A DNA stretch of 37,885 nt, taken from NCBI GenBank assembly GCA_028873925.1, contig JAPPNA010000150.1, forward strand, positions 1 to 37,885. Reading direction: 5' to 3'. The notes under the pieces were generated by a model. It was given only the letters and a program-made list of their open reading frames with translations. It had not been told where the DNA came from and did no database searches. How positions within the stretch are numbered: position 1 is the first letter of the stretch; the number at the start of each line of letters is the position of its first letter. Shown here piece after piece: positions 4,260 through 27,842 of the stretch. The translations under genes and the position numbers were made by a program. The stretch is from Bacteroidota bacterium. GTDB taxonomy: Bacteria; Bacteroidota; Rhodothermia; Rhodothermales; Bin80.

Positions 4260-4265
4260 ATCCTG

Positions 4266-5048: not shown

Positions 5049-5051
5049 GGA

Positions 5052-5069
5052 TCGGGAATTCGATCCCGA
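5052..5069. other. Small inverted repeat after the SDR gene
   Basis: TCGGGA (5052-5057) and TCCCGA (5064-5069) form a 6-bp stem with a 6-nt loop just past the SDR stop. It lacks a T-tract. It may attenuate read-through, but the evidence is slight. Confidence 0.25.
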
Positions 5070-5080
5070 CCGCCTATACC

Positions 5081-5203
5081 CTACATCCATGCCAAGCCGT
5101 TTTGCATGCGCTCGTGGCCGTAGTGATGGCTTATCAGCAGTGTTTCTGAGCCATCGGGATAATAGGCCAGCGCATTAGTGGAATGCATTCCGGCGAGCCT
5201 CAC
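5081..5203 (-). pseudogene. Orphan C-terminal coding fragment of an unidentified gene
   Basis: Read on the minus strand, the gap between the SDR and isomerase genes encodes AGMHSTNALAYYPDGSETL and then LISHHYGHERMQNGLAWM before a TAG stop. This is far more protein-like than an antisense frame usually is, and it lies outside the neighbouring coding regions. Upstream on the same strand it runs straight into the isomerase gene, so a full gene cannot exist here. I read it as the preserved 3' end of a lost gene. The family is not recognised. Confidence 0.35.
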
Positions 5204-7444: not shown

Positions 7445-7738
7445 ATGACAACTCTTCGCACCCTAAAGCTCGTCAATATTCTCCTAAGTGTGGCCCTAAT
7501 CACCACAGCGCTGGCTATCGGCCTGCGTGAGATATACCCAGTGGGTGCAGACCAGAAGACACCCGACCAAGAATACCGAGTAAGTTTTGGCCTAGGCTGT
7601 CTACTCCCGTCACTGGAATTCGTTCCAGCACCCTGCTATAGTGTGGATTGCGAACGGAGAGGGAAGGGCTGCTCCCATTGGGCGGGGGCCTGTTTTACTT
7701 TGGATGAGGATGACGAAGATGGGTATTTCGACGTTTGA
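7445..7738 (+). CDS. Small Cys-rich exported or membrane-anchored protein, copy 1
   Basis: The 97-residue protein has an N-terminal hydrophobic segment (about 8-26) behind a basic start, then a PVGADQ box at 32-37, cysteines at 52, 64, 69, 76 and 83, and a strongly acidic tail (LDEDDEDGYFD) resembling a calcium-binding loop. It aligns without gaps to the 97-residue protein at 9650-9943, about 44% identical by hand count, with all five cysteines conserved. In Bacteroidota, small NVEALA proteins with an N-terminal hydrophobic segment and C-terminal cysteines are found next to 6-bladed propeller genes. The architecture and context match, but the NVEALA motif itself is absent. It is probably exported with a disulfide-bonded core. 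Function is unknown. The propeller gene starts 46 nt downstream. Confidence 0.8.
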   Translation: MTTLRTLKLVNILLSVALITTALAIGLREIYPVGADQKTPDQEYRVSFGLGCLLPSLEFVPAPCYSVDCERRGKGCSHWAGACFTLDEDDEDGYFDV

Positions 7739-7784
7739 GCATGATCTCCCGATTACCTAGGTCCTGCCTGCTCAGCTGCGATTC

Positions 7785-8819
7785 ATGATAGTGCGTTTGG
7801 CGAATTCTCGGGCTTTGGTTACGCTCCTACTGATAACGGGTGCCTTATGGGGTCCGCATGCGGGTGCTCAGCACCCCACGCCTGCTGAATTGAAATACTT
7901 CACGCCGGTTCGGTCAGTCATATTTGACGTGCCGGATACGCTGCTTATAGCGACCATTGACCATTTGGATGTGGACGCTTCAGGCAGATTACTGGTAACC
8001 GACAAATTGGGCCAGCAAGTGCTGCTGTTTGATTCAACGGGAGCTTTGCTCGCATCGCTGGATCCACGAGTTTGTCATCCCGGATTCACGTTTAGGCCGG
8101 TGAAAGCCATGTTCGGCGGAAGTGAGTTTATTTTGCTCTTTAATGCTGGCCCCTGGGGATATCGCTTCACTTCGGATGGGGCCTGTCTGGGTGGCGTGCA
8201 TTCTGACTTCGGCCTGTCCAAATTTGTAGATATCGACCCGAAAGGAGGTCTTATTGGAGTTGTGGATGGACCTGAATGGGAGGTCCGGCAAATGGATGGC
8301 TCGGGAAAGCCGCTTAACTCGTTCCCGGTAGCTGAGCCTAAGTTCCCCAATGCTAGTTATCGATTTTCCGGCGGCGGGCTCGTTGCAGACGGGTTTCATG
8401 TCTACTTCGCTTGGGCCCCGGAACCAACTGTCATGAAGTATACGCTGGATGGCGAGTTTGTGCGCAGAATCCGGAAGAGCTCGCGGTACTTCCGTTCGCA
8501 ACATGCCGACATGCCTTTTGAAGTCTCCCCAGAGCAAGTCGCTGCCCTTAGAAATTGGACCGGCACCTTTACGCTGGCGCTATATGAGCTAAGCGAACAC
8601 TTAATCATGGTCCAGTACCTTGATAATCGAAGTGGCACCGGATACCAGGTATTCAGCAAGGACGGGGAGCTGGTTGCTGAAGAGCTCGGGATCGGGGGCT
8701 GGTTCTTTATACACGGAGGAAACGGACTCGCTTACGGCCTCTTCCAGCCGGACCTTGACGACCAAAGAGAATTGCCCAACCCCTTTATCACGGTTTACAA
8801 GTTTTTGCCCCCACAATGA
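7785..8819 (+). CDS. Exported 6-bladed beta-propeller protein, copy 1
   Basis: The 344-residue protein has a signal peptide (about 1-28, ending AGAQ) and a repeated beta-rich body typical of the 6-bladed propeller family (PF17170 type/NHL-like) of Bacteroidota. Repeating blades are visible as IDHLDVDASGRLLVTD, VLLFDSTGALLASLD, FVDIDPKGGLIGVVDG, VRQMDGSGKPLNSFPV and VMKYTLDGEFVRRI. Such proteins are periplasmic or surface-associated binding scaffolds, and no catalytic residues are apparent. It is closely related to the propeller at 9996-11018 along its whole length. Its stop overlaps the next gene's ATG by 4 nt, indicating translational coupling. Confidence 0.87.
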   Translation: MIVRLANSRALVTLLLITGALWGPHAGAQHPTPAELKYFTPVRSVIFDVPDTLLIATIDHLDVDASGRLLVTDKLGQQVLLFDSTGALLASLDPRVCHPGFTFRPVKAMFGGSEFILLFNAGPWGYRFTSDGACLGGVHSDFGLSKFVDIDPKGGLIGVVDGPEWEVRQMDGSGKPLNSFPVAEPKFPNASYRFSGGGLVADGFHVYFAWAPEPTVMKYTLDGEFVRRIRKSSRYFRSQHADMPFEVSPEQVAALRNWTGTFTLALYELSEHLIMVQYLDNRSGTGYQVFSKDGELVAEELGIGGWFFIHGGNGLAYGLFQPDLDDQRELPNPFITVYKFLPPQ

Positions 8820-9649: not shown

Positions 9650-9943
9650 ATGAATACCCTTCGCATTCTTCAGATCATCAAAATCCTGCTGGCTGTTACC
9701 GTTGTGGTCATATTCGCGGCAATCGGAATGCGCGAGACTACTCCTGTGGGTGCAGATCAACAAACTGAGGAACAGGACCGCAAGATGGAGTGGCGTAGAG
9801 GCTGCATTTTTTCAGACAAGTCCCGCGCCAGACTACCCTGCTACCGCGCGTTTTGCAAGAAGGAAGGAACCGAATGTTCTGCATGGGGCGGTGCCTGCTT
9901 CAGTGCGGATGAGAATGACGAAGATGGCTTTTGCGATTACTGA
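9650..9943 (+). CDS. Small Cys-rich exported or membrane-anchored protein, copy 2
   Basis: A 97-residue paralogue of the protein at 7445-7738, colinear with no gaps. It keeps the AIG.RE..PVGADQ block at 24-37, cysteines 52, 64, 69, 76 and 83, the WGGACF segment and the acidic tail (DENDEDGFCD), and adds a sixth cysteine at 95. The N-terminal membrane segment keeps its hydrophobicity but diverges in sequence, as expected for an anchor or signal. The region from 64 to the end is the most constrained, so this is likely the functional part. The propeller paralogue begins 52 nt downstream. Function is unknown. Confidence 0.8.
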   Translation: MNTLRILQIIKILLAVTVVVIFAAIGMRETTPVGADQQTEEQDRKMEWRRGCIFSDKSRARLPCYRAFCKKEGTECSAWGGACFSADENDEDGFCDY

Positions 9944-9995
9944 TCCTGGTTGCTTAATTGGCTGAAAAGAACAAGGGAACACAGGACCCGTAGAC

Positions 9996-11018
9996 ATGCG
10001 TCAGGTGCACCGAAGTCTCCGATTGATCTTTGTGCTGCTGCCAGCAGCTATCCCAACCATTCAGGCGCAGGATCTATCGCCCGCTGAGCTGAAGTACTTC
10101 ACGCCAGTGCGTACGATCAAGTTCGACGAACCGGATTCGCTGCTGATTGCAGCCATAGAGCATCTTGATGTGGATGCCGCAGGTAGACTGCTGGTAACTG
10201 ACCCGCTCGGCATGCAGGTGTTCTTGTTTGATTCAACGGGGGCCTTGCTGGCCTCCCTTGATTCGCGTGAATGCCACCCCGGTTTTGAGTTTGATCCCAC
10301 GGGTGCCATTTTTGGGGCCAACGAATTTATTCTTGTTTTGAACGCCGGATCTCGCGGGTATCGCTTCAATTGGAACGGCGGCTGCTTGGGCAGCATGGAC
10401 CCCGGGTTTCGCTCAACGTCATTTATGGATATCGATCCGACCGGAACATTCTTCGGGGTTGAAGAAGGTCCCTTCTGGGAAGTGCGGCGAATGAACTCCA
10501 CCGGCAAGATACTGGACACGTTTCCCGTCCCGGAACCCAAGTTCCCCAATGCCAGCATCCGGTGGGCTGATGGCGGGCTGGTAGCCGATGGATCGCATGT
10601 CTACTATGCGTGGGCACCGGAGCCGGCGGTCATGAAATTCACAGTGGATGGCAGGTTTATACGCAAAATCCAGCAGCACTCGCGGTACTTCCAGTCACCG
10701 CGTGCTGACTTGCCCGCCGAACTCTCGCCGGAACTGTTCGCAGCAATCAGGAAATGGCGGGGAACGAGTACGCGGACTGTTTTTGAACTCACGGACCGGT
10801 TCATCATGCTCCAGTACATTGATCACAGCAATGGTACCGGCTACCAGGTCTTTGACAAGGGTGGCGCATTGATCGTAGAAGAATTGGGGACAGACAGCAG
10901 GTTCTTCATCCATGCAGGCTACGGGCTGGCTTACGCCCTCACCCAGCCGGACTTGGACGAGGAGGGAGAGTTACCCAACCCCTATCTCACAGTTTACAGG
11001 TTTGAAGCTCCGCAGTGA
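9996..11018 (+). CDS. Exported 6-bladed beta-propeller protein, copy 2
   Basis: A 340-residue paralogue of the propeller at 7785-8819, with a signal peptide (about 1-24, ending IQAQ). Long identical stretches include PAELKYFTPVR, DSTGALLASLD, EPKFPNAS and PDLD at matching positions, while loops such as FGANEFILVLN versus FGGSEFILLFN vary. This is the pattern of an old tandem duplication under selection for the fold. It is likely periplasmic or surface exposed, with no enzymatic motif visible. The next frame (11015) overlaps its stop by 4 nt, as in copy 1, but that frame is not homologous to the thioredoxin-like gene. Confidence 0.87.
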   Translation: MRQVHRSLRLIFVLLPAAIPTIQAQDLSPAELKYFTPVRTIKFDEPDSLLIAAIEHLDVDAAGRLLVTDPLGMQVFLFDSTGALLASLDSRECHPGFEFDPTGAIFGANEFILVLNAGSRGYRFNWNGGCLGSMDPGFRSTSFMDIDPTGTFFGVEEGPFWEVRRMNSTGKILDTFPVPEPKFPNASIRWADGGLVADGSHVYYAWAPEPAVMKFTVDGRFIRKIQQHSRYFQSPRADLPAELSPELFAAIRKWRGTSTRTVFELTDRFIMLQYIDHSNGTGYQVFDKGGALIVEELGTDSRFFIHAGYGLAYALTQPDLDEEGELPNPYLTVYRFEAPQ

Positions 11019-13671: not shown

Positions 13672-15093
13672 ATGCCCAGAATATTACTCGCGGTTTGCTT
13701 TTCCGTGCTGGTCACCATTCCCGCAACGGGTCAGACAAATGCCCTGATTGAAAGCTTGGACGCGCGGGCGGACGAGTACTTCGGCGTGGCCCGGCAGATC
13801 TGGGAGTGGGCTGAATTAGGGTACCAGGAAGATCAGAGCAGTCAGCTGCTCATGGAAACGCTCGCGCACGAAGGGTTTGACGTTGATGCCGGTGTGGCGG
13901 GCATTCCGACCGCTTTTGTGGCCGAGTACGGCTCCGGCGCACCGGTAATCGGCATATTGGCCGAGTATGATGCGCTGCCCGGATTGTCTCAGGCGGCACG
14001 GCCTCAGCAGCAGGCCCTCATGCCTGAGGGTAACGGACACGCCTGTGGGCATAATCTCTTCGGCACCGCGTCAGTCGCATCCGCCATTGCGGTCAAGGAT
14101 TGGCTAAGCAGCAGCGGCAGTTCAGGCACGATTCGTGTCTACGGCACGCCGGCGGAAGAGGGAGGTGCGGGCAAAGTCTACCTGGTCAGAGAAGGCCTGT
14201 TTGATGATGTGGATGTCGTACTGCACTGGCATCCGGGAGATCGTAATGATGCCAGCCCCACCACCACCCTGGCGAATCGTTCGGCTAAGTTCAGGTTCTA
14301 CGGACATTCCACACACGCGGCCGGTGCCCCCGAACGAGGACGCAGCGCACTGGATGGGGTGGAGGCAATGAACATGATGGTCAATATGCTGCGGGAACAT
14401 GTGCCTCAGGAAACCCGCATACACTACGTCATTACGCGGGGCGGTCTGGCCCCCAATGTGGTGCCGGACTTCGCCGAAGTATACTACTATGTGCGCCACC
14501 CCCTGGCGGCCACGCTTGAGACCCTATGGCCGCGCGTCATCGCCGCCGCCGAGGGAGCTGCCCTGGGTACCTCCACGCGTATGGACTACGAAATTATTCA
14601 CGGTATTCACAGTCTGCTGCCCAACGAAACCCTGGCCAACGCGGTTTACGCCAATCTCCAGGAGGTGGGCGGGATTACGTATTCAGCAGAAGAACTGGAA
14701 TTTGCGCAGGAAATCCGCGGAACCCTGGGTGACAATCTGCCCCCTATGGGATCGCAGGAAACCATCCGGCCCTACGCACTTCGCATGGGTCTGGGCTCAA
14801 CGGATGTGGGGGATGTGAGCTATATGGTGCCTACCGCTGGATTCTATGCGGCCACCTGGGTGCCCGGCACCGCCGCACATAGCTGGCAGGCCACGGCCGC
14901 AGGTGGGATGAGTATAGGGGGTAAGGGTATGATGCTGGCGGCGAAAGTGCTTTCCATGACAGCGGTGGACCTGTTTACGACACCGACGCTGGTGCAGCAG
15001 GCCAGGCAGGAGTTTGCGCAGCGGCGCGGCCCTAACTTTACGTACCGGCCGCTTTTGGGTGACCGGGATCCCCCCTTGGATTATCGGCGATAG
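13672..15093 (+). CDS. Exported M20 amidohydrolase (AbgB-like)
   Basis: A 473-residue metallo-hydrolase of the M20 amidohydrolase branch, near p-aminobenzoyl-glutamate hydrolase subunit B, cleaving amide bonds of acylated amino acids. EYDALPG lies at 98-104, the metal-binding H123-A-C125-G-H127 follows, the catalytic/metal E162-E163 is in PAEEGGAGK, and H187 lies in HWHPGD. STDVGDVS near the C-terminus is typical of this branch. A hydrophobic N-terminus (about 1-20, ending ATGQ) indicates export, unlike the cytoplasmic E. coli AbgB. The 3' end overlaps the convergent symporter gene by 56 nt. A supporting role in supplying amino acids to the neighbouring uptake operon is possible but inferred. 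Confidence 0.92.
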   Translation: MPRILLAVCFSVLVTIPATGQTNALIESLDARADEYFGVARQIWEWAELGYQEDQSSQLLMETLAHEGFDVDAGVAGIPTAFVAEYGSGAPVIGILAEYDALPGLSQAARPQQQALMPEGNGHACGHNLFGTASVASAIAVKDWLSSSGSSGTIRVYGTPAEEGGAGKVYLVREGLFDDVDVVLHWHPGDRNDASPTTTLANRSAKFRFYGHSTHAAGAPERGRSALDGVEAMNMMVNMLREHVPQETRIHYVITRGGLAPNVVPDFAEVYYYVRHPLAATLETLWPRVIAAAEGAALGTSTRMDYEIIHGIHSLLPNETLANAVYANLQEVGGITYSAEELEFAQEIRGTLGDNLPPMGSQETIRPYALRMGLGSTDVGDVSYMVPTAGFYAATWVPGTAAHSWQATAAGGMSIGGKGMMLAAKVLSMTAVDLFTTPTLVQQARQEFAQRRGPNFTYRPLLGDRDPPLDYRR

Positions 15094-16954
15094 AATCGCC
15101 GAAGAACTTCCGAATAAGCGATTCCGGGTTGGGCGATCCCCAGTGCGTCCCCATCCACGCGGCGACCAGCGACGCGACAAACCCCCAGATTAGCGGATCC
15201 AGTCCGAACGGCCGGATCGGTGCCGTGCTGCCATAGGCCAGGAAGCCGGCCGCGTATAGCCCGAGATAGACCGCAAAGCCGCCGCACATGGAAGCCATCG
15301 CCCCAGCCTTGCTGAATTGGGGCCAGTAAAGCCCCAAGGCTACCGGCCCCAGAAATGCCACGGCCAGGCCGCCACCGGTGAATACCACCACATACTGCAG
15401 GAACTGCGGCGGATACAAGGCCCCCAGCGTTGCCACAAGCCCGACCAGAATCGTTACGCAGTAGCTCATCAGTCGCAGTCGTGCGGCGGGGGCCCGGGGG
15501 TTGATCGAACGCTGATAGACATCACGCACCACGCTGGAAGTGATCATCAGAATAAAGCTGTCTACCGTGCTCATGGCCGCCGCAAACGGTGCCGCAATCA
15601 GAAAACCGGCCAGCCACGGGATCCCCGCATTATCCGACAGCAAATAGGCCATAGCTGGCATGATGCGATCCGGGGTATGGTCCAGGCCCGGCACCAGCAG
15701 GCGGGCGCAGCAGAAGATGATCACCAGCGGGAAATAAATCAGGGCAAAATACATCGTCAGCGAAGCGATAGCGCGCTTGAGCGTTACGGTACCCGTAAAG
15801 GCCATTAGCCGGACCATGCTGCTGGGCTGCCCGGTACCTGCCACGGCCCAGAAGGCAAAAAACGAAATGGCCAGCCCGATAGGCAAAAAGCCGTTGGGAT
15901 CCGACGGACTCGGCCCGGGTGCCCGCATATAGGTGCCGGATTTACCGCTGCCGCGTGCGTACGCCCTGAGCTCATGAACGCGCGGTTCAGCTGGCAGTGA
16001 GGGCAGCGGTGAAGCTTTGATGCGGGTAATTTCGGAGGGAGTCATGATCCGGGTGACCTTTACGACACCGGAAAGCGTATCGCCCGCCGGAATGTATACC
16101 GGTTCCCCGGTGCGCAGCAGCCGCCCGTCATCTTCAAACCATGTGCCCATAGCAATGCGGACACCACTGGAAGGAGCGGCGCTATCCAGCGCAAACGAAG
16201 CCGTTCCCAGTTCCGGTGGCTCCATGACCTGCATGTCCTCGCTCGCTGAGCGAAGCCCGCCGACCTGATGCAGTGCCAGAAAGAGCATAATCAAAACTCC
16301 GGCCAACATCACGAATCCCTGCAGGACATCGGTCCAGACCACGGCCCGAAAACCGCCAAACATGGTGTAGACAATCACCAGCCCGGCGAAGATCAGCAGC
16401 CCCAACACATATTCCGGATCACCGTTCTGGGCGGCCAGCATGGGGACTGCCTGCTGCACCGCGAAAGCGGCATCCTGATAGAGTGCGGAAGAGCCCAGCA
16501 GCTGCTGCATGATCAGGGCCGCCAGTGTGAACTGGGGGATCAGATATACGCACAGCAGCAGGGCGAGCAGCAGGGTGCTAAGCACGGCGAGCGCCGGACT
16601 GCGGAAACGCTCCCGCAACACATCCGGCACGGTTACCGCTCCGGTTCGATGCGACAGCTGGCTGAGCCGTTTGCCCAACAGACCCATGGCACACAGCGGA
16701 AAGACCATGTAGCTGGCAATCCATAGGGCGAGCACCCAGCCGTGGGCGTAAATCAGCGAAGGGAATCCGGCAAAGGATCCCGCGGATGCGCTGGTTGCCC
16801 CGAAGGTAAGGGCCAGGGCAATCACCCCCAGACTGCGGCTCCCCAGGAAGTACTCGCTTATAAAGGACTTGCCGGATCCAACCCGGTGGGAAAGCCACGC
16901 CAGTACCAGCACCAAGCCGGTGTACCCCAGAAAGGCCAACAGGGAGATGTTCAT
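15038..16954 (-). CDS. Sodium:solute symporter (SSS family, PanF-like)
   Basis: The 638-residue inner-membrane transporter has the SSS fold (about 13 membrane helices), with hallmark segments such as EYFLGSRSLG, TFGATSASAGSFAGFPSL and AAPFAAAMSTVDSFILMITSS. It would import a carboxylate, amino acid or small peptide-like solute with sodium. It is longer than typical family members because of a roughly 115-residue soluble insertion (about 235-352) between membrane segments. The ATG overlaps the upstream YhdT-like gene by 4 nt, the arrangement of E. coli yhdT-panF. It is the last gene of a six-gene operon starting with a TonB receptor. Its 3' end overlaps the convergent M20 gene, an unusual arrangement with no room for a terminator. 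Confidence 0.92.
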   Translation of the reverse strand: MNISLLAFLGYTGLVLVLAWLSHRVGSGKSFISEYFLGSRSLGVIALALTFGATSASAGSFAGFPSLIYAHGWVLALWIASYMVFPLCAMGLLGKRLSQLSHRTGAVTVPDVLRERFRSPALAVLSTLLLALLLCVYLIPQFTLAALIMQQLLGSSALYQDAAFAVQQAVPMLAAQNGDPEYVLGLLIFAGLVIVYTMFGGFRAVVWTDVLQGFVMLAGVLIMLFLALHQVGGLRSASEDMQVMEPPELGTASFALDSAAPSSGVRIAMGTWFEDDGRLLRTGEPVYIPAGDTLSGVVKVTRIMTPSEITRIKASPLPSLPAEPRVHELRAYARGSGKSGTYMRAPGPSPSDPNGFLPIGLAISFFAFWAVAGTGQPSSMVRLMAFTGTVTLKRAIASLTMYFALIYFPLVIIFCCARLLVPGLDHTPDRIMPAMAYLLSDNAGIPWLAGFLIAAPFAAAMSTVDSFILMITSSVVRDVYQRSINPRAPAARLRLMSYCVTILVGLVATLGALYPPQFLQYVVVFTGGGLAVAFLGPVALGLYWPQFSKAGAMASMCGGFAVYLGLYAAGFLAYGSTAPIRPFGLDPLIWGFVASLVAAWMGTHWGSPNPESLIRKFFGDSIADNPRGDPGHPKAAGT

Positions 16955-17211
16955 GCCGCAGGTCGGGCATCATCATCCTGAATGGCTACCAGCGCATACC
17001 AGATGGAAAAAACTGTCGCCAGGGCCCAGGGCAGGACGATGCCGAACAATACCCATGAAGGTAGACCCCAGATGAGTGCAGGCGGCTCCTCGCTGTATGC
17101 AAAGAGAGCGCAATAGCCGAGGGTCCAAGCACCGCAGACAAGCCAGGCGGTTACGATATGGAGGGACTCTTTCCGGGCGCGCACAAACGATCGGCTGAGT
17201 TTGTCCATCAC
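16951..17211 (-). CDS. YhdT/DUF997-like small membrane protein
   Basis: The 86-residue protein has two hydrophobic helices (about 20-40 and 48-70) separated by a short polar loop (YSEEPPALIWGLPSWVLFG). The W-x-LPSWVLFGIVLPW segment fits YhdT-type proteins encoded directly upstream of PanF-type sodium symporters, which probably form a small subunit of the transporter. It overlaps the RidA gene at its 5' end and the symporter gene at its 3' end by 4 nt each, giving strict stoichiometric coupling. Confidence 0.8.
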   Translation of the reverse strand: MMDKLSRSFVRARKESLHIVTAWLVCGAWTLGYCALFAYSEEPPALIWGLPSWVLFGIVLPWALATVFSIWYALVAIQDDDARPAA

Positions 17212-17678
17212 GCCTTAAGCTCCAGAATTAACTCCGTCTCCACTGTACTGCCCAGTGGCAGCTGGGCCATACCGACCGCTGAACGCGCTCCTATACCGGC
17301 ATCCCCAAACACATGCCGGAGCAGTTCTGAGGCACCGTTGATCACCAGATGGGCCTCCGTGAATGTCGGGGCTGAATTGACATATCCGGTCAGGCGCAGC
17401 ACGCGGCTGATGTGCTCAAGAGAGCCAAGATCCTGGCGGACCATTCGAAGATTGTTGGCTGCGCACAGCGCGGCCGCTTGGATCGCATCTTCCACGCTGA
17501 TGTCGGTGGGCACTTTGCCCGCGTACCTCAACCTGCCGGTGGCCATCGGCACCGCGCCGGACACATACATTATCCGGCCGGTTACCGTGACCGGTTTGTA
17601 GATGGCTCCCGGTGTGGGGATATCATCAAGCGAATAGCCGAGGGCCGAGAGTCGCGAGTCTGGAGAATTACGGGTCAT
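17208..17678 (-). CDS. ridA: RidA family enamine/imine deaminase
   Basis: A 156-residue protein of the YjgF/RidA family, trimeric cytoplasmic enzymes that hydrolyse reactive enamines/imines such as 2-aminoacrylate to keto acids and ammonia. The longer N-terminus is typical of the about 150-residue branch. R132 in GARSAVGMAQLP sits at the position of the catalytic Arg of RidA, and E147 in VETELILE follows at the usual spacing. It lies between an M19 dipeptidase and the transporter subunits, joined by 4-nt overlaps. Placement next to a dipeptidase suggests it detoxifies or processes enamine products released from peptides. Confidence 0.9.
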   Translation of the reverse strand: MTRNSPDSRLSALGYSLDDIPTPGAIYKPVTVTGRIMYVSGAVPMATGRLRYAGKVPTDISVEDAIQAAALCAANNLRMVRQDLGSLEHISRVLRLTGYVNSAPTFTEAHLVINGASELLRHVFGDAGIGARSAVGMAQLPLGSTVETELILELKA

Positions 17679-18757
17679 CTGAGACAGCGGGTGAACAGTC
17701 GGCGCAGGTTGCCGTGAAAAATGCCGTGTACTTCTGCGGCAGTATAGCCGCGATTCCGCAGGATGCCGGACAGCTTCTGGATGTCACGATAGCGATCCAG
17801 TCCAAGAGGTGTCTGGTCACTGCCGAATCCACCATCCAGATCACTGCCGATAGCGCAGTGCCGGGCATTGCCGGCGAGCGAACAGATGTGGTCAATGTGG
17901 TCGGCGGCTGCGGCCAGGGACACCACGCTGCGATGAGTCTGCCCTCGCTGCCAGCCGGCGTACAGCATCCAGGCATCCAGGGCGGTGCCGATAACGGCAT
18001 CGCGGTCAATCAGCAGTCGGATCTGTTCATCGGACAGCTGTCGTTGGCCCGGCACCAGTGCCCGGCAATTGTGGTGACTGGCCAGCACCGGCCCGGTAAA
18101 GTCCTCCAGGACCTGCGCCATGCTCTGATCGGAGAGATGGGTAACGTCCAGCACAATCCCCAGCTCTTCAAAGGCCTGCAGCAGGTCCGCTGCCTGTGGC
18201 ATCAGCGGCCCTTCATGCCCGGTACCATGGGCATACTGACCGATGCCGTAGTGCGTCAGGCCCGCTGCACGCACCCCCTCCCCGTACCAGAAGTACGCAT
18301 CATCCGGGTCCAGAATCGGGTCACAGCCTTCAAAACTCAGAATTATGCCCAGCGGAGCGGACGAACCCTCCGCCCAATGGTCCTGGAGCTCCCGAGCAGT
18401 GCGCACCAGACGGACATCCCCGCTGTCGGCGAGCCATTGATAGTAGGCCAACTGACCGATGGCATGCGCGCGGGCAATGGGGCAGCTTGCGTATTCCAGG
18501 TCTTTGCGCAACACCGGAAATATCTCGGGCCTGCGCTGGCCCGATCGGACCAGCAGGGTGGCAATGCACACGCGTACGCCGGACTGTTGGAATTCGGGCA
18601 GGGAAGCTACGCAGCGCCCCCGGAAGGATCCGTCGGTGGCATGCGTTTCGGCCTGCTGAAGTTCCTCAAGGGGCAGTGATAAATCGCGATTGAACGACAG
18701 CGCGTTCCACGCAAGGTCCAAATGTGCGTCAAAGATCGGTATCAGAGGTTCCATCAC
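17675..18757 (-). CDS. M19 membrane-dipeptidase-type peptidase (cytoplasmic form)
   Basis: A 360-residue binuclear-zinc dipeptidase of family M19 (renal dipeptidase type), which hydrolyses dipeptides, including D- and dehydro-residues. Metal ligands are present: H12 and D14 (AHLD), E143 (SFEG), H207 (VTHLS) and H228 or H229 (ASHHN); D306 (GSDLDGG) is the catalytic acid region. There is no signal peptide, so it should be cytoplasmic, unlike many M19 members. It overlaps the upstream DUF4249 gene and the downstream RidA gene by 4 nt each. The operon therefore moves a substrate from the outer membrane through a symporter to cytosolic cleavage. Confidence 0.93.
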   Translation of the reverse strand: MMEPLIPIFDAHLDLAWNALSFNRDLSLPLEELQQAETHATDGSFRGRCVASLPEFQQSGVRVCIATLLVRSGQRRPEIFPVLRKDLEYASCPIARAHAIGQLAYYQWLADSGDVRLVRTARELQDHWAEGSSAPLGIILSFEGCDPILDPDDAYFWYGEGVRAAGLTHYGIGQYAHGTGHEGPLMPQAADLLQAFEELGIVLDVTHLSDQSMAQVLEDFTGPVLASHHNCRALVPGQRQLSDEQIRLLIDRDAVIGTALDAWMLYAGWQRGQTHRSVVSLAAAADHIDHICSLAGNARHCAIGSDLDGGFGSDQTPLGLDRYRDIQKLSGILRNRGYTAAEVHGIFHGNLRRLFTRCLR

Positions 18758-19659
18758 GATTCCGCGCCCGATTCGCCCAGTACATAGAATCCTGCCCGTC
18801 GGATCAAGGCCAGCGGCGGGCGGAAGGTTACAGACTCGGTGAATCCGCTGCCGAAGTAGCCAAATCCGTTTTCCACATTGGAGAACGAGCCCGGTTCAAC
18901 CAGATAATCGGGATCAAACACGCCAATCGGAGAGACCCAGCTCTGGTCGCCGACATGAACGGTTACGTTTATCTGGCGCAGGTCAATGATGTCCGTTGTT
19001 ACCGAGTTATCCTCATTAAAGGCCCGATAGATTTCATTGTAATCCCGAATCAGGTCCACTTCCAGCAGGAATCCGTCCGGCACCGGACTCGGCTCGCCGA
19101 CATAATTGAATAGGAGAGGCTTGAATATCGGGTTGCTGCCGCCCTCGCTGAAGCCCACCAGAATGTATTCCACATCTATGCGGGGCAATGCCGGAGGGCT
19201 GCCGCGGATCAGCAGGGGCATAAGGGCCTCTGCGGGTCGTAGGGTGTCGGGCTCCAGCGGCTCCAACACCACCGGGTGCGGCACGGTTGTCACAGCTGCG
19301 GTAGTGGCACCATCCGAGCGGAGCACTTCAAGTCGGTACGTCTCGCCGCCGTTGGCCTCAAAAACGGCCCAGAACACATGGCGGTAATCACCATCCTCCA
19401 GGGTTACGACCGAGTCTTCCCAGATGGTCCGTACCCCTGTATCCAAATTGGTCGTTGACACGATGGCATCCAGTGGTTCGGGCCGGACGAGTGCAATATT
19501 GGATTTAATTTCAAAGAGGCGTACTGCGTGGGTGTCTGACTTCGGGTTCATCATGCCGAAGAGCGAGAACGGCTGGTCTATATCCAGTCGGGTATTAACA
19601 GTTTCGCGGCAGGCCGCAAGAAGCAGCAGTGCGGCGAGGGCTGACACCATGTGCTTCAT
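18754..19659 (-). CDS. DUF4249 lipoprotein
   Basis: The 301-residue lipoprotein has a lipobox ending at C17 (LLLLAAC) and an all-beta body with segments such as SFSNVENGFGYFGSGFTE near the C-terminus, typical of DUF4249. These Bacteroidota proteins are encoded directly after TonB-dependent receptors and are thought to be surface-exposed lids or binding partners of the receptor barrel. Here the gene starts 3 nt after the receptor stop and overlaps the M19 gene by 4 nt. No enzymatic residues are recognised. Confidence 0.85.
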   Translation of the reverse strand: MKHMVSALAALLLLAACRETVNTRLDIDQPFSLFGMMNPKSDTHAVRLFEIKSNIALVRPEPLDAIVSTTNLDTGVRTIWEDSVVTLEDGDYRHVFWAVFEANGGETYRLEVLRSDGATTAAVTTVPHPVVLEPLEPDTLRPAEALMPLLIRGSPPALPRIDVEYILVGFSEGGSNPIFKPLLFNYVGEPSPVPDGFLLEVDLIRDYNEIYRAFNEDNSVTTDIIDLRQINVTVHVGDQSWVSPIGVFDPDYLVEPGSFSNVENGFGYFGSGFTESVTFRPPLALIRRAGFYVLGESGAES

Positions 19660-19662
19660 GGC

Positions 19663-21924
19663 TCAATTAAAGGTCGCCTTCATGCCCAAAGTCGGTACGA
19701 TCGGAAGCTGCCAGTTATACTGGGTGGTAAAGATGTCCAAGGCAAAGAGGTTGCGGCGGTTGTAGAGGTTTATGGCCCCAACCTGGGCGGTCAGGCCGAC
19801 ATTGCCCACCACAAAATCCCGCTCAACGGACACATCCAGCCGGTGGTAGGTAGGCAGGATGCCCCGGAAGGGGCGGCCGTAGATCACGCGCTGATCATCC
19901 TCAACGGAAAACATGTCCTGCACACCATCCATCATGACAAATCCGTCAAAGCCGTAGACATGGTTGAACGGGCGTCCGCTGCCGAAATTCCAGCGCGCAC
20001 TGATATCAAAATCGCGTACCCGGGTCGCCAGCACCAGGTTCAGCTGATGGCGCCGATCGTGCGGGGGACGAAAAGTCAGATTCTCTGCGCCGAACCAAAG
20101 CAGGGCCGAAGGCTGCCGCGACGTATACTCCACCGATGCCAGTCCGTAGTTGACGTAGCCGTACATCCGTCGGCGCCGCACTTCGGCGCGCAGCTCAAGG
20201 CCCGCCGCTTCCCCGTCCGCCCGTTGCAGCCTTGAGGTGAAGCGCGGAAACGATGTCCACTCAGAAATAAACAGATCCTTGAGCCGCTTGTAGTACACTT
20301 CGGCGGACACTTCCAGCCAGGCAGCCGGACTTACCCGGTACCCTGCCAGCGTATGGAACGCCTGGGACAGCTCCTCGATGGGAGCGCTGCGCCAGGAGGT
20401 AAACAGATTGGTCGCATCCCGGCGGTCATGCAGGCCGAATATCTCCTGATGGTACCAGCCGGCTCCGGTGCTGACTTCATGCTCGCCTCGCTGCCATATG
20501 ACGCGAAAGCGGGCTTCGTAGGGACCCCTCTGCTCCTGGCCCGGAAACAGTTCGGCCAACAGGGTGACGCGCGCCTTCAGGCCTCCAGCGATATAGAAGT
20601 CCGGCTCCAGATAGACACCGGCCTTATGCCGGCGGCTGAAGCCCTCTTCAAGGTCCTGAAAGAGTCCGCCCAAGTGTGCGGTAACTTGGGGTGCCCGCCA
20701 GTACAGGCCCCATTTCCACTGGGTACGCTCATAGAAGCTGGTCATCTTCGCGGCATACTGGAACCCTTCAATTCGCGCCCAGCGCACCGGGTCATCCGCC
20801 GGGCCCTGGTCGGTTTCCATGCGCGAATACGACAACAGAATCTCCGCGATAAAGGGAAGCGCGCGCGGCAGCACCACATACCGCAGGCCGATGGCTGTGT
20901 TCGTCCACCCGACTTCCTCCAGGATGCGGTCTTCTGACTCAAGTCCGATTCTGCCCCGATCACGCGTATGCAGTGCGCTGACCGACAACTGACTGTTAGC
21001 GCTGAGGATGCCGTGCATTTTGGCAAAACCGTCTCCGAAGGTATAGGGCATATCCTGGCTTACGTACTGTTGGGCCAGCGGCTCTACCAGGGATTGACGC
21101 ACAGAACCGATCAGTGAGAGACGGTCCCGGATCAGCGGCCCTTCAAACTGTCCGGCGCTTACAAACGGCGACAGCGAGACCGTGCCGCCGTAGTCCCGCT
21201 TATTGCCATTGCGGGAGCGGATGTCAATGACTGACGAAATTCGTCCGGTAAAGGGCGCACCGTATCCGGCGGTATGGATGTCGGCTTGTTGAATAATGTC
21301 TGACGGGAAGGCCGAATAAAAGCCCAGAATATGGTAGGGCTGGTACACGTACATACCATCAATCAGGGTCATGTTGTGGGAGGGTTCACCACCCCGAATG
21401 AAGTACTGCCCCCCGCGGTCTCCCAGACTGACCACGCCCGGCAGTGTTGTCAGATAACTGGCCAGATCGCCCGACACATCCGGCGTGGGCAACAGGTCCA
21501 TGTCCTTGGGCGTGATGGTCTGCAGGCCAGCGGTTACGCGGGCCGCGCCGGTTTCCGTTGCGGCTTCCACCGTGATTTCGCCCAGTTCCGCCCCGCCTGC
21601 TGTAAGTTCGATGTTGAGTGTCAGCCGCTGGCCACTGCGGAAGATGAGTGTGTCTGACCAGGACGTGTAGCCGACATAGGAAACGCGCAGGATGTAGGTG
21701 GCGGGCACGATACGGGTCAGGTTGTAAATTCCGTCCGAGTTGGTGGAACCGCCGCGCAGATCTCCGTTGAGGCTCTCCAGGATCACATTTACCCCAACCA
21801 GCCCTTCCCCATCGGCGGCATCGGTAATGAAGCCCCGGATGCTGACCGTCTGCGCCAGGGTGATCTGGGATGACAACAGCGCTGCGACCCATAGGGCAAG
21901 AGCAAATCGCGAATGTGCAGTCAA
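19663..21924 (-). CDS. TonB-dependent outer-membrane receptor with carboxypeptidase-regulatory-like N-domain
   Basis: From the TTG at 21924 this gives 753 residues: a signal peptide (FALALWVAALLSSQITLAQ), a carboxypeptidase-regulatory-like beta-sandwich (about 20-105, ISIRGF...GVNVILESLNGDLRG...SYVGY), a TonB plug (PDVSGDLASYLTTLPGVV, YFIRGGEPSHNMTLIDGM) and a beta-barrel ending in aliphatic and aromatic residues. The frame extends to another TTG at 22008, but that adds residues unlike a leader. It would import a substrate with TonB energy. It is the first gene of the operon with the DUF4249, M19, RidA, YhdT-like and SSS genes. The start lies opposite the divergent gene at 22030, so the roughly 105-bp interval carries both promoters. 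Confidence 0.9.
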   Translation of the reverse strand: MTAHSRFALALWVAALLSSQITLAQTVSIRGFITDAADGEGLVGVNVILESLNGDLRGGSTNSDGIYNLTRIVPATYILRVSYVGYTSWSDTLIFRSGQRLTLNIELTAGGAELGEITVEAATETGAARVTAGLQTITPKDMDLLPTPDVSGDLASYLTTLPGVVSLGDRGGQYFIRGGEPSHNMTLIDGMYVYQPYHILGFYSAFPSDIIQQADIHTAGYGAPFTGRISSVIDIRSRNGNKRDYGGTVSLSPFVSAGQFEGPLIRDRLSLIGSVRQSLVEPLAQQYVSQDMPYTFGDGFAKMHGILSANSQLSVSALHTRDRGRIGLESEDRILEEVGWTNTAIGLRYVVLPRALPFIAEILLSYSRMETDQGPADDPVRWARIEGFQYAAKMTSFYERTQWKWGLYWRAPQVTAHLGGLFQDLEEGFSRRHKAGVYLEPDFYIAGGLKARVTLLAELFPGQEQRGPYEARFRVIWQRGEHEVSTGAGWYHQEIFGLHDRRDATNLFTSWRSAPIEELSQAFHTLAGYRVSPAAWLEVSAEVYYKRLKDLFISEWTSFPRFTSRLQRADGEAAGLELRAEVRRRRMYGYVNYGLASVEYTSRQPSALLWFGAENLTFRPPHDRRHQLNLVLATRVRDFDISARWNFGSGRPFNHVYGFDGFVMMDGVQDMFSVEDDQRVIYGRPFRGILPTYHRLDVSVERDFVVGNVGLTAQVGAINLYNRRNLFALDIFTTQYNWQLPIVPTLGMKATFN

Positions 21925-23625: not shown

Positions 23626-25566
23626 TCAGGTATCAACCACGCGCAGTACGCCGCGCATGGTTGCCGCGTGACCGGGGAATGTGCAGACGTAAACGTAGGT
23701 GCCGGACGTGTCCGGGGCCTCAAAGAAGATGGTTTCCGACGCGCCCGGTTCAAGAAGTCCCGTGTGAGCCACTACCGCCTCCGACTCGGGCACGTAGGCC
23801 AGTTCGTGGCCCCGCAGGCCCAGCTGCATGGCGGCCAGGGCAATGGCATCGGTGGAATCGGCCGGCACGATGACGAGATTATGCAGCATATCGTCATTGT
23901 TGTCAAATGTGAGCGCCACCCGGCTGCCACGGCCAACCGTCAGCGTTTCACGGTCAAACAGCAGATCGGGTAGCGTGCCTACCGTTAGCCGGTGATCAGC
24001 TTCGCCGGGCCAGGATGTCGGCCGGTCAGGCTGTCCGCTTGCGGCGGTCTCTATTGCCATTGGGGTCACCGCCAGCGCCGGTCCTGAAGGGATGCGGTTC
24101 AGGGTGTAGTATCCCGTATCGTGCAGCAGCGGGTTGGCATCTTTGGAGTGCACGCCGACCAATGCGACCTGATAGATGTAACCTTCACGCAATTCTCCGA
24201 CAGCGAGGCGTACAGACAGGCCATCTTCAGCCACCACAGCCGCGTGCACGGGATGTGTACGGATATTGATTGCTGGGCTGCCGTAGCCGGAATGGTACTT
24301 ATAGGTGAAGCTCTCAACCGTATAGGCACTTACGTCGCCTGCCGCGGCAGCATCAACGGGTAAGGTAAAGGTGGCGATAAAGCCATCCGGCATGGCCTTT
24401 AGCTCATGAACTTCAAAGGGAATCTTTCCGGTCCAGACCAGGCGCTGGAGTCCGTAGGGAGCTTTTCCGGTGGACCCCCATCCCCGGCTGGTCATACCGA
24501 CCATCATACCTCCTTCGGGGTCCCACGCCATTCTCAGCACGCCGGAAGAAAAACCCTCGCGGAACGGAAACGCCGCCCCCTGATAAACGCCATCGACGAT
24601 TTCAAGGCTGACGCGCGCAATCTTGCTGTGCCCCTGATCACCGACAAACAGTTGGTTTGCGAACGGTCCGAATGCTCCGCCTGTGGTGTCGGGCACGATA
24701 TCCGAGGTTGATATCCCCAGAATCCCGTGCGGAAACCAAACCGCGGGCGGCTTGAGGTCGGGCAGGGTTTGGGCCACTTCAAACAGCGGCTGTCCCGTAT
24801 CCGGTACGTCCGCCGGCGTAAGTGAAAGCGGAGAGCCGGGTTGCGAGGTCCAGCGCAGTCCGGCGGGATTGCCCACAAAGTCACCCGTTTCAACATGAGT
24901 GATGAATCCAGAGCCCACCCAGTCGCCTTGGTTTTCGGCATAGAACAGCGCGCCATCCGCAGTCATGCCCATGCCGGCCGGCGAGCGCATCCCGGTTGCA
25001 ATCGGGGTCATATCTCCGTCCGGCGTGATGGAAATCATCCAGCCCCGCCACAGGGACTGACTGGCACCGTAACCGATCCATCCCAGATTCAGGGCAACAA
25101 CCATAGCGCCATCAGGCCTGATAAGCGGTCCGTAGGAGTACTCATGGTAATTGCCTTCCAAGGGCCAGGCGTATACGACCTCGTAGTGATCGGCGGTGGC
25201 ATCACCATCGGTATCCACCAGCCGGGTCAATTCGCTGCGCTGGGTGCTGTATAGGCTGTTGTTGTGCCAGGCCAGCCCCAGCGCCTCATGGAGGCCATGC
25301 GCAAAGCGATGATAATGGGGCAGTCCTCCCTCGGCCATGGTGGGATTATCGATGAGCCAGACTTCCCCGCGGCGCGTGGCGACCGCCAGTCGGCCATCGG
25401 GCATGAACGTCATGCCGCCTATTTCCAGCATGATGTTCTGGGGAATCGGGATCGTTACGATCCGATAATAGTTCGATTCTTCGGGATTTTGAGCGGCTGC
25501 GGGAATTCCAGGCAGCACCAGGCAGAGGCACCCAAGTATGCGCGTCATGCTACCAGACGATTTCAT
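23626..25566 (-). CDS. Exported propeller (sorbosone/glucose-dehydrogenase-like) fused to auracyanin-type cupredoxin
   Basis: The 646-residue protein has a signal peptide (RILGCLCLVLPGIPAAAQ), a large beta-propeller of the PQQ-dependent sugar dehydrogenase/membrane-bound dehydrogenase type (IGGMTFMPDGRLAVATRRGE, LALNLGWIGYG, GMRSPAGMGMTADGALFY), a linker, and a C-terminal cupredoxin with type-1 copper ligands H562 (LHNLVI), C628, H633 and M637 (CTFPGHAATM). The copper domain probably accepts or relays electrons from oxidation in the propeller, in the periplasm. The start at 25566 is chosen because GGAGG stands 6 nt upstream. It overlaps the DUF1080-PA14 gene by 17 nt, so the two are coupled. 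Confidence 0.88.
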   Translation of the reverse strand: MKSSGSMTRILGCLCLVLPGIPAAAQNPEESNYYRIVTIPIPQNIMLEIGGMTFMPDGRLAVATRRGEVWLIDNPTMAEGGLPHYHRFAHGLHEALGLAWHNNSLYSTQRSELTRLVDTDGDATADHYEVVYAWPLEGNYHEYSYGPLIRPDGAMVVALNLGWIGYGASQSLWRGWMISITPDGDMTPIATGMRSPAGMGMTADGALFYAENQGDWVGSGFITHVETGDFVGNPAGLRWTSQPGSPLSLTPADVPDTGQPLFEVAQTLPDLKPPAVWFPHGILGISTSDIVPDTTGGAFGPFANQLFVGDQGHSKIARVSLEIVDGVYQGAAFPFREGFSSGVLRMAWDPEGGMMVGMTSRGWGSTGKAPYGLQRLVWTGKIPFEVHELKAMPDGFIATFTLPVDAAAAGDVSAYTVESFTYKYHSGYGSPAINIRTHPVHAAVVAEDGLSVRLAVGELREGYIYQVALVGVHSKDANPLLHDTGYYTLNRIPSGPALAVTPMAIETAASGQPDRPTSWPGEADHRLTVGTLPDLLFDRETLTVGRGSRVALTFDNNDDMLHNLVIVPADSTDAIALAAMQLGLRGHELAYVPESEAVVAHTGLLEPGASETIFFEAPDTSGTYVYVCTFPGHAATMRGVLRVVDT

Positions 25567-27403
25567 AAGAGACCTCCGCACGGCCGTTTTCCAACTGGAC
25601 GGGCAGCAGCAGGACCGGCCCGGATTGCAGGGCGGCGTTGCCCGCTTTTTCGATGTACCATGACCGGTCGCCGACCGCATAGCTGCCGGCATCCATAGAC
25701 TCAATGAGGGAATTCGCCGCGGCCTGTACACGAAGGAGGTGATCAGTTTGGCCTTCAAAGGTCAGGGTCCGTGTCAGGTGTTGTCCTCCTTCATCGGGCC
25801 GGATGCGGTCTGTGATGCGTAGGTCTCCAAAGCGGTACAAAAACTGCGGCCGCCCGCCAGCATCAATTCGGTATCCGGTAAATGTGAGCCCCTCTGCAGG
25901 ATTATCACCAGCCACGAGAAAGGTCGAACCGGAAAGTGTAAGCGTACTGCCGCACGGGATCGCCAACTGATTGTGACCGCGATTATGCCACATCTGCGTA
26001 AGATCCACAAACGGGCCGCGCCAGGCGTGGAGCATCGCACCGATGGCCAGGTCATAACTGTAATGCACTCCGCTGGGATCGCCGACGCTCACGGCGTGCG
26101 TGCGCTTGGCGGACCTGTGCCGGACGAATCCCCGCAGGATCACGGGCTCTGTGGCGGTGTCCATCAGGATTGGCGGCGTGGGCGACTGGATTTCCAGTTC
26201 CCGGAGCCACCGCACCGGGGTGCCGGGGCCCTCTACGCTCAATCCGAAATTCGGCTTGTGCCCTCCTGTTGACTTGAATACGACAAACGTGAACGGGTGA
26301 GTTCCGGCATCAAGCTCCACATCAGCATGGAGGTAGGGGTGGTTTTGATCGTGTTCCAGCACCAGGTTGCCATTGATATGGAGCCGGGCACCTCCGATGC
26401 GCTGGCCGCTGAAGTGAGGATCGCCGGTAATCCAGTCCAGTGTGACGCTGAAGCGGTGCAGACCGCTTGCGGGTACATGAAGCCGTCCATTGTACGCAAT
26501 CGCCGCGGGCGAAGCCGGGCGTACAGCATGGCCGGAAAAATCCGCAGCCTGCCCGGCAGCGACGGGTGTCATCCGGGCCAGATCTTCCGGCCATGCTTCA
26601 AACCGTTCTTCGTATTCGCGAAATTCCAGCCCGCTTACGGTGATGGCCTCGGAGCTGTATGTCTTGTAGCGGATATGGCGGAAAGCAACGGGACCGTGGT
26701 CACCCTGAATCATGAGCGGGCCCGTTGGTGCCTCATTGTTGAATGCAGCTGCCCGTGTGGGGCCGGTGACCGTTACGTTTTCCTGCACGATGCTGCCGTT
26801 TAATTCCACGCGCACAAACCGTGCATGGCGGGCCTTCTGCCCGGATGCATCGAATTGGGGGGCCTCAAATACTATGCGGAGTGTCTGCCAAAGCCCGGGC
26901 GCACGGCTCGCATTCAGTCTCGGCGGGCGCCCTTCAAAGCCGCGCCCGGCTTCCTCATCCCACCGCTGATAGACACCGCCCACATCGCCAATGGTTACAT
27001 GGGTCTCTCCCCAGCTATCAAGAAGCTGGATTTCGTAGCGTCCCTGCAGATAGATGCCGGAATTTGACCCCTGGGGCATCATAAACTGCAGTTCAAGCTC
27101 AATGTCGCCGTGGGTCCAGATCGTAAAGAGGTTCTCCCTAGACCGGGATGTGGGCAGGTTTACGAGCACCCCCTGACCGGGCTCTGCGGTCAGGTCATGC
27201 CGCTTACGCCGGTCGCTGCGGACTTGGCCCGCCAGCTGCCAATTGGTCCCGGGTTCGTTAAAGGCCTCCAGGGTCTCAAGGGCCAGGGCCTGCATGGGCA
27301 GGCGCTCCTGAGCCTGCGCGGGCCCCATGGCAGCAGCGGCCAGTATCCCGGTCAGAAGTACAGCGATCAGGCGGGCATTCACCGTAGAAGCAGGGAGCGG
27401 CAT
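25550..27403 (-). CDS. Exported DUF1080 (3-keto-disaccharide hydrolase-type) and PA14 domain protein
   Basis: From the ATG at 27403 (MPLPASTV) the protein is 617 residues with a signal peptide (about 1-32, ending AQAQ). A DUF1080/3-keto-disaccharide hydrolase-like domain (about 40-250) shows IELELQFMM, NSGIYLQGRYEIQL and GPLMIQGDHGPVAFRHI, a jelly roll acting on or binding glycans. A PA14 domain (about 290-400) follows (YNGRLHVPASGLHRFSV, GARLHINGNLVLEHD). The C-terminal third is beta-rich and unassigned. The frame is open far upstream, but that part has no signal-like start. The upstream gene of a pair with the propeller-cupredoxin protein, it suggests periplasmic processing of an oxidised (keto) sugar. 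Confidence 0.88.
   Translation of the reverse strand: MPLPASTVNARLIAVLLTGILAAAAMGPAQAQERLPMQALALETLEAFNEPGTNWQLAGQVRSDRRKRHDLTAEPGQGVLVNLPTSRSRENLFTIWTHGDIELELQFMMPQGSNSGIYLQGRYEIQLLDSWGETHVTIGDVGGVYQRWDEEAGRGFEGRPPRLNASRAPGLWQTLRIVFEAPQFDASGQKARHARFVRVELNGSIVQENVTVTGPTRAAAFNNEAPTGPLMIQGDHGPVAFRHIRYKTYSSEAITVSGLEFREYEERFEAWPEDLARMTPVAAGQAADFSGHAVRPASPAAIAYNGRLHVPASGLHRFSVTLDWITGDPHFSGQRIGGARLHINGNLVLEHDQNHPYLHADVELDAGTHPFTFVVFKSTGGHKPNFGLSVEGPGTPVRWLRELEIQSPTPPILMDTATEPVILRGFVRHRSAKRTHAVSVGDPSGVHYSYDLAIGAMLHAWRGPFVDLTQMWHNRGHNQLAIPCGSTLTLSGSTFLVAGDNPAEGLTFTGYRIDAGGRPQFLYRFGDLRITDRIRPDEGGQHLTRTLTFEGQTDHLLRVQAAANSLIESMDAGSYAVGDRSWYIEKAGNAALQSGPVLLLPVQLENGRAEVSYEIVW
25573..25577 (-). promoter_or_regulatory. 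Shine-Dalgarno deciding the start at 25566
   Basis: On the minus strand GGAGG lies 6 nt before the ATG at 25566. The alternative ATG at 25548 has no comparable site. The SD is inside the 3' end of the upstream coding region, as expected for coupled translation. Confidence 0.6.
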
Positions 27404-27641
27404 GGGATTCCTTACGGGCACAAAAGGGGCAACGCATGAATGTACTATCGGCCGTCGTAGTTTGCAAAATTCCGCAGAATGGTCAGCACGGCGTGGGGCG
27501 GCTTCTTTGGGAGCTTCGGTCGGGTGTTCCGCGTAACGGCGCGACACAGCCAACCGATCCCAAATCGGGCCCGAAGCGGTCTCTATTCCGTGTAGCCATG
27601 AAAATGAGACACGGTTAGACACTAATTTGTGTAGTCGGATC
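27404..27641. other. Intergenic region
   Basis: About 240 bases between the divergently read DUF1080-PA14 gene and the hsdS remnant. No gene is recognised. It should hold the promoter for the DUF1080-PA14 unit and possibly for the remnant/DUF4062 pair, but no convincing element was found. Confidence 0.4.
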
Positions 27642-27842
27642 ATGATGGTGGTATTGCCTATGCTATCCGAGCAGCGCGTGATTCCGGCTGTCCTATTCGC
27701 AATGGATGCGGAGATGGGTGCATGTGAACAGAGATTGGACCGGACTCGCGCAGTCAGGAAGGGCATGATGCAGCGGCTGAAAGCCGGAGTCATTTGGCGG
27801 CCGATTCCAGAGGAGATTTCCGAGCCGGACTTGCGTCAATGA
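27642..27842 (+). pseudogene. hsdS: C-terminal remnant of a type I restriction specificity subunit (HsdS)
   Basis: The frame reads VVLPMLSEQRVIPAVLFAMD, then AEMGACEQRLDRTRAVRKGM and MQRLKAGVIW, matching the conserved helical C-terminus of HsdS proteins, which typically reads LP.L.EQ..IA.VL...D.EI..LE.RL.KTR..K.GMMQ.LLTG. Both target recognition domains are absent and no usable N-terminus remains, so it cannot specify DNA recognition. Its TGA overlaps the ATG of the DUF4062 gene at 27839 by 4 nt. The original arrangement was therefore an operon of hsdS followed by this DUF4062 gene, as in type I restriction loci that carry accessory genes. Confidence 0.75.

Follow-up and report, generated by a model that had tools for sequence, protein, structure and literature searches.

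Comparison with Described Systems

The closest described counterpart of the operon considered here is the ong cluster, which serves oxidative chitin use in Pseudoalteromonas prydzensis ACAM 620 (PMC9537276). As set out there, OngB is a D-aminoacylase-type enzyme that deacetylates N-acetylglucosaminate, OngC is a fold-III pyridoxal 5′-phosphate (PLP) enzyme that forms 2-keto-3-deoxygluconate (KDG) and deaminates D-serine and D-threonine too, OngD belongs to the RidA family and is required for growth, its role being left unsettled, and OngIT is a sodium:solute symporter (SSS); the word dipeptidase does not occur in the main text of that report. The operon in question lies at positions 21924 to 15038 on the minus strand of the window, the whole stretch of 37,885 nucleotides analysed, which represents positions 1 to 37,885 of contig JAPPNA010000150.1 of a Bacteroidota bacterium of the order Rhodothermales (GenBank assembly GCA_028873925.1; 3.93 Mb in 185 contigs). 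Its six co-directional genes, as called in the window, encode a TonB-dependent receptor, a DUF4249 lipoprotein, an M19-family amidohydrolase, a Rid-family protein, a DUF997 protein and an SSS transporter. This gene order recurs in other genomes, and the subfamily to which the M19 protein belongs is linked to Rid proteins and to D-amino-acid-type PLP enzymes.

Compared with the ong cluster as it is described there, the window operon likewise combines TonB-dependent uptake, an SSS symporter, a cytoplasmic amide-hydrolysing enzyme and a Rid protein, but a PLP deaminase, a KDG kinase and a beta-hexosaminidase are missing from it, and DUF4249 and DUF997 proteins are present instead. Other loci with the same type of M19 protein add a D-serine-dehydratase/D-threonine-aldolase-like fold-III PLP enzyme (DSD; Ala_racemase_N plus D-ser_dehydrat domains), and two of these, L109 and L132, also add a 2-keto-3-deoxy-6-phosphogluconate (KDPG) aldolase and a PfkB kinase. 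By analogy, the M19 loci resemble the ong pathway, with an M19 protein putatively in the place of OngB. M19 enzymes accept a D residue on the C-terminal side, and since D-glucosaminate is D-amino-acid-like, an M19 enzyme could carry out an ong-type deacylation.

The remaining parts of the operon also have described parallels. The DUF997 protein adjoining a PanF-like SSS symporter corresponds to the yhdT-panF gene pair of E. coli, whereas the window symporter carries about 115 additional amino acids and scores below the panF equivalog cut-off. The first two genes recall BT2172-BT2173, an adjacent receptor and DUF4249 protein that act together as a known functional pair (PMC11003636); in the window this pair is instead linked to an M19-Rid-DUF997-SSS module. 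A literature search of incomplete coverage returned no link between M19 proteins and either Rid proteins or sugar acids, and the available text of Niehaus 2015 (PMC4433059) mentions neither dipeptidase nor D-serine.

Organization and Conservation of the Operon

The TonB-dependent receptor gene (19663..21924, CarboxypepD_reg and plug domains in Pfam) is called from a TTG start at 21924 within an open frame that extends to 22008, and a 3-nt gap separates it from the gene for the DUF4249 lipoprotein, the predicted receptor partner (18754..19659). The M19 gene (17675..18754) overlaps the DUF4249 gene by 1 nt when read from its ATG start and by 4 nt when read from an alternative GTG start at 18757. 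Overlaps of 4 nt are found at each of the three following junctions, which join M19 to the Rid gene (17208..17678), the Rid gene to the DUF997 gene (16951..17211), and the latter to the symporter gene (15038..16954).

In a phylum sample of 296 genomes scored at E ≤ 1e-20, the M19 subfamily is present in 32. A set of 101 loci, made up of 20 from the phylum search, 80 from a genome contig scan and the window, was surveyed over wide flanks with hidden Markov models (HMMs); the loci (L numbers) are related to one another, and near-duplicates may exist among the 20 and the 80. The full order TonB-DUF4249-M19-Rid-DUF997-SSS, receptor included, occurs in eight loci, namely the window and L057, L058, L059, L060, L061, L065 and L079. 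M19-Rid-DUF997-SSS is also found in L056, in L067, whose contig starts at M19, and in L010, which has short flanks and is cut by the contig end. Because the six-gene order recurs in seven further loci, it is not a chance arrangement. A preliminary description, made from the letters of the window, had proposed a six-gene operon with one 3-nt gap and 4-nt overlaps that acts as a single import-and-breakdown unit; the operon is present in that form, and the proposed unit is supported.

A Divergent Subfamily of M19 Proteins

The window M19 protein matches Peptidase_M19 (PF01244) with 160.5 bits against a cut-off of 26 and, judged by sequence, is a member of a distinct subfamily spread over many phyla, for which NCBIfam holds no name. 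Members share the signature DAHLDLxxNAxxxNRDL and occur in Bacteroidota/Rhodothermota, Planctomycetota, Verrucomicrobiota, Acidobacteriota, Chloroflexota, Deinococcota, Spirochaetota, Poribacteria and others. The 85 aligned relatives share 41–62% identity with the protein of the window, the nearest named one being from a Rhodothermales metagenome-assembled genome (L079, 62%). In the M19 tree, the window groups with the seven other six-gene loci, followed by L056 and L067 together with two verrucomicrobial loci, L064 and L066. Residues H11, D13, E142, H168, H206, H227, R238 and D305 are invariant in the 86 rows of the subfamily alignment, and we take these positions to be metal ligands, catalytic residues and carboxylate-binding residues; R238 is presumably the arginine that binds the C-terminal carboxylate, and equivalents of human R230 and H152, hand-counted from the human numbering, are presumably included. 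The protein begins right at its catalytic motif, IFDAHLDL, with no signal peptide or leader visible by eye, in keeping with the earlier suggestion that cleavage takes place in the cytoplasm after import.

An AF2 model of the protein (pLDDT 95.5) was compared with the PDB in one structure search (VIA Z scores), which returned 17 M19 entries at Z 36–42, with root-mean-square deviations of 1.8–2.6 over 294–324 residues and 18–24% identity, and a next group (phosphotriesterases, COG3618) at Z 17. The protein is thus predicted to have the M19 TIM-barrel fold. The closest solved structures are dipeptidases, and the best matches include a complex with an L-Ala-D-Ala phosphinate. With the M19 dipeptidases Sco3058, Lmo2462 and human DPEP1 the window protein shares this fold, the metal ligands and the carboxylate-binding residues, but it differs in its low identity, its own signature and its own neighbourhood of Rid, DSD, SSS or GntP genes. 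Nothing in the model points to a loss of amidase chemistry; the structure does not reveal the substrate.

Opposite the M19 gene runs a 355-aa open frame (17612-18679, plus strand), and similar antisense frames lie opposite M19 in many loci. The recurrent c16 family of the locus survey, which is antisense to M19, was rejected as a gene and is most likely a shadow open reading frame of a conserved GC-rich gene.

Genomic Neighbourhoods of the M19 Subfamily

A gene was counted as a neighbour if it lay on the strand of M19, no more than 5 kb away, and scored at least 60 bits. By this criterion, Rid is found at 34 of the 101 subfamily loci, DSD at 23, both together at 20, and SSS, DUF997 and gluconate-type GntP permeases at 13 each; ten of the Rid loci have the SSS type of arrangement seen in the window. 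The picture is similar among the 71 loci whose flanks reach 5 kb in each direction (Rid 28, DSD 16, both 15, SSS, DUF997 and GntP 12 each, none 29). No locus holds both SSS and DSD (0/101), while each of them goes with Rid, a pattern as expected of interchangeable modules. As a control, 20 ordinary M19 loci with a high general-M19 score were hand-picked, one per genome, from 75 M19 places in 99 genomes, and the same criterion found Rid, DSD, SSS, DUF997 and GntP at none of them. Fisher's exact p-values for subfamily against control are 0.0008 for Rid, 0.013 for DSD and 0.12 (not significant) for SSS, and are only indicative since genomes and loci are related. Rid proteins of the PF14588 type are common, occurring in 161 of the 296 genomes, and the argument therefore rests on adjacency rather than presence. 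The functional link between M19 and Rid that the preliminary description had drawn from the window is borne out by this conserved adjacency, 34/101 subfamily loci against 0/20 ordinary ones; the refuting condition named in that description, a lack of such adjacency among relatives, thus does not hold.

Several loci encode further enzymes of sugar-acid breakdown. L109 and L132 share the order M19, Rid (PF01042 type), DSD, KDPG/KHG aldolase and PfkB kinase, the top NCBIfam match of the L109 kinase being a KDG/KDGal kinase below cut-off. Without DSD, a KDPG aldolase and DGOK (2-keto-3-deoxy-galactonokinase) are found at L052, a PfkB kinase at L105 and an FAH protein at L137, while the FAH protein of L053 is closest to 2,4-didehydro-3-deoxy-L-rhamnonate hydrolase; L137 and L141 each have an aldehyde dehydrogenase. 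One of the nearest outgroup loci, L066, encodes a Rid protein, an HpaI/GarL-type aldolase and a class-III (glutamate-semialdehyde-aminomutase-like) aminotransferase; such an aminotransferase is also close to M19 at L048 (by eye) and at L064, where it is accompanied by MFS, DHDPS-type and MR/MLE sugar-acid-dehydratase-like proteins. GH109-type proteins occur at L130 and L143, and the GntP protein of L043 scores 473 bits as a gluconate symporter versus 249 as DsdX. For the proteins discussed here, curated NCBIfam cut-offs were reached only with the GntP, SSS, eda and M20 amidohydrolase subfamily-type models, so that the names used show family, not function. The window operon holds no KDG kinase; elsewhere in its genome a PfkB kinase and a KDPG aldolase are adjacent (G000:C156), and a GH20 match lies on C88.

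Rid and Transport Proteins

The Rid protein scores 64.3 bits with PF14588 (cut-off 35), 33.2 bits with PF01042 (cut-off 27.3) and 27.3 bits with the archetypal RidA model TIGR00004, under its cut-off of 106.25. The earlier assignment to RidA thus holds at the level of the Rid family but not for archetypal RidA, and by its sequence the protein is a predicted enamine/imine deaminase of the PF14588 (Atu1372-like) branch, with PDB entries 3d01 and 9bk9 as structural references. R132 and E149 are invariant in 14 aligned rows and presumably correspond to the E. coli active-site residues R105 and E120, an equivalence drawn by eye. A second PF14588 gene in the window genome (L181:8383-8946, on G000:C138) has a signal-peptide-like N-terminus by eye, which suggests an exported Rid protein, and lies near a glycerol-kinase-like gene, also named by eye.

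The symporter matches SSF with 190.6 bits and the SSS superfamily model TIGR00813 with 187.7 (cut-off 184), while its 252.8 bits against the PanF equivalog TIGR02119 fall below the cut-off of 328. Its extra segment (approximately residues 236–350) is missing from the panF model match. Planctomycete SSS proteins encoded next to M19 (L077, L137 and L141; 47% identity) carry a similar segment, which ties this transporter type to the M19 subfamily in a second phylum. The small DUF997/YhdT-like membrane protein reaches 21.7 bits with PF06196, below the 26.3 cut-off (E 1.9e-4), and is a putative symporter partner by its position beside the SSS gene; an HMM built in this analysis places a DUF997 gene next to each of the 13 SSS genes that lie near M19 on its strand.

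The DUF4249 lipoprotein matches PF14054 with 30.4 bits (cut-off 28.5). Two more TonB-DUF4249 pairs, related to that of the window, are present in the genome on C120 and C37 (L178 and L179), with receptor identities of 48% and 42% in the matched stretch; their neighbours look unrelated, and no M19 or Rid gene was seen beside them.

Proposed Function and Alternative Explanations

In the reading that we favour, with about even confidence, the window encodes a catabolic import operon in which M19 frees a D-type amino acid, a PLP enzyme acts in trans and Rid cleans up the product. The substrate would cross the outer membrane by way of the TonB receptor and its DUF4249 partner and the inner membrane by way of the sodium symporter and its DUF997 partner. 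In the cytoplasm, M19 would cleave the amide bond of a beta-hydroxy-alpha-amino acid of D configuration that carries an N-acyl or aminoacyl group, either a derivative of D-serine or D-threonine or, slightly favoured, a 2-amino-2-deoxy sugar acid (N-acetylglucosaminate, for example). A fold-III PLP enzyme whose gene lies elsewhere in the genome would then dehydrate the released amino acid, and Rid would hydrolyse the resulting enamine or imine to a 2-keto acid. The conserved M19 residues, which presumably bind a carboxylate-bearing amide, are consistent with this scheme. The DSD family PF14031, found in 116 of the 296 genomes, is present in 32/32 of those with the M19 subfamily versus 84/264 of those without, and outside the window's class the figures are 23/23 versus 21/199. 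In the DSD tree the operon-borne enzymes form two separate clades, one of Bacteroidota/Verrucomicrobiota/Spirochaetota and one of Chloroflexota/Deinococcota.

Several observations weigh against this reading, beyond the relatedness of the loci that tempers the p-values. No surveyed partner accompanies M19 at 48 of the 101 subfamily loci, and the window operon itself lacks a DSD gene, which makes the PLP step in trans the weakest link. PF14031 is present in every sampled genome of the window's order, with or without the M19 subfamily; of the 23 that lie outside the window's family, all have PF14031 and only one has this M19, so that co-occurrence is uninformative for the lineage of the window. 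The single PF14031 protein of the genome (L063:8752-9894) belongs to neither operon clade and falls in one that spans the order, whether or not M19 is present; it was therefore rejected as a dedicated operon partner. In relatives, this order-wide DSD adjoins a zinc alcohol dehydrogenase and a hemA-like gene (names partly by eye). The solved structures closest to the operon DSDs are D-threonine/D-3-hydroxyaspartate aldolases, and an aldolase activity would make no enamine. In the ong cluster as reported, finally, the deacetylase OngB is of the D-aminoacylase type and not an M19 protein (PMC9537276).

A bolder version of the favoured reading, which we regard as possible and put forward tentatively, is that the M19 subfamily acts as an N-acyl-2-amino-2-deoxy-aldonate amidohydrolase rather than a dipeptidase, an OngB counterpart that arose outside the D-aminoacylases. 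It would stand at the centre of an amino-sugar-acid pathway of modular make-up, spread over many phyla and comprising import by GntP or SSS, M19, a fold-III PLP dehydratase and Rid, followed by KDG kinase and KDPG aldolase, FAH or HpaI. In Rhodothermota, this pathway would take the form of the window operon.

Among the alternatives, ordinary scavenging of L,D-dipeptides, for instance from peptidoglycan or D-amino-acid peptides, with Rid as a general guard against enamines from D-serine, D-threonine or other PLP chemistry, survives best but appears unlikely. It is consistent with dipeptidases, one holding an L-Ala-D-Ala mimic, being the closest solved structures, with a fold-III PLP enzyme encoded in trans and with the conservation of R238 in its presumed carboxylate-binding role. 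However, Rid, DSD and SSS are missing from 20/20 ordinary M19 loci, and KDPG aldolase, sugar-acid kinase, FAH and HpaI partners would be unexpected.

The preliminary description had instead proposed the import of dehydro-amino-acid peptides, which M19 would split and thereby itself release 2-aminoacrylate-type enamines for Rid, with no PLP enzyme needed. Dehydropeptidase activity belongs to the M19 family, the catalytic residues are intact, and the 4-nt overlap of M19 and Rid in an operon without a PLP enzyme fits such a route. The adjacency of DSD in 20 of the 34 Rid loci speaks against it, as this enzyme would supply the enamine and is a likelier source than M19; nor do the sugar-acid enzymes, found rather than peptide enzymes at several loci, or the gluconate-type permeases near the subfamily fit. 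M19 as the direct enamine source was accordingly set aside, and we consider this explanation improbable. Least probable of all is that the subfamily has ceased to be an amidase and instead catalyses a different hydrolytic reaction in the breakdown of sugar acids, such as the lactone opening known for some members of the Amidohydro_2 family, which lies beside M19 at L099, L120 and L140: sugar-acid enzymes without DSD at L052, L105 and L137 would suit this idea, but every M19 catalytic position is invariant and many loci are linked to amine chemistry (DSD, Rid and class-III aminotransferase).

The label of membrane dipeptidase is given by default to many M19 proteins. The gene neighbourhoods described here single out a subfamily consistently linked to Rid and D-amino-acid-type PLP enzymes, and this linkage makes its substrate, as well as the unexplained need for RidA in amino-sugar-acid breakdown, directly testable.

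Other Genes in the Window

Downstream of the operon, a convergent gene for an M20 amidohydrolase (13672..15093, plus strand; Pfam, and TIGR01891 in NCBIfam) runs 56 nt at its 3′ end into the symporter gene. The convergent pair is also present, without overlap, at L058 and L059, and the M20 gene is probably not part of the operon. Two genes on the minus strand upstream of the operon encode an azurin/plastocyanin-domain protein (23626..25758, Pfam) and a 3-keto-disaccharide hydrolase-domain protein (25550..27793), and each is a conserved neighbour in six of the eight six-gene loci. Searches of the window against Rfam and for tRNA genes gave no match.

Farther out, a plus-strand run at 3072-6896 encodes a zinc alcohol dehydrogenase, an SDR protein, a xylose-isomerase-like TIM barrel and a CN-hydrolase; homologues of the SDR, CN-hydrolase and M20 proteins flank the operon in L058 and L059 as well. 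A two-gene unit (97 aa and approximately 340 aa) is present as a tandem duplicate at 7445-8819 and 9650-11018 on the plus strand, and its 344-aa protein has no Pfam match. A gene at 27794-29473 on the plus strand combines DUF4062, a RecG-C-type HATPase_c_4 domain and a winged helix, an odd regulator-like or defence-like mixture.

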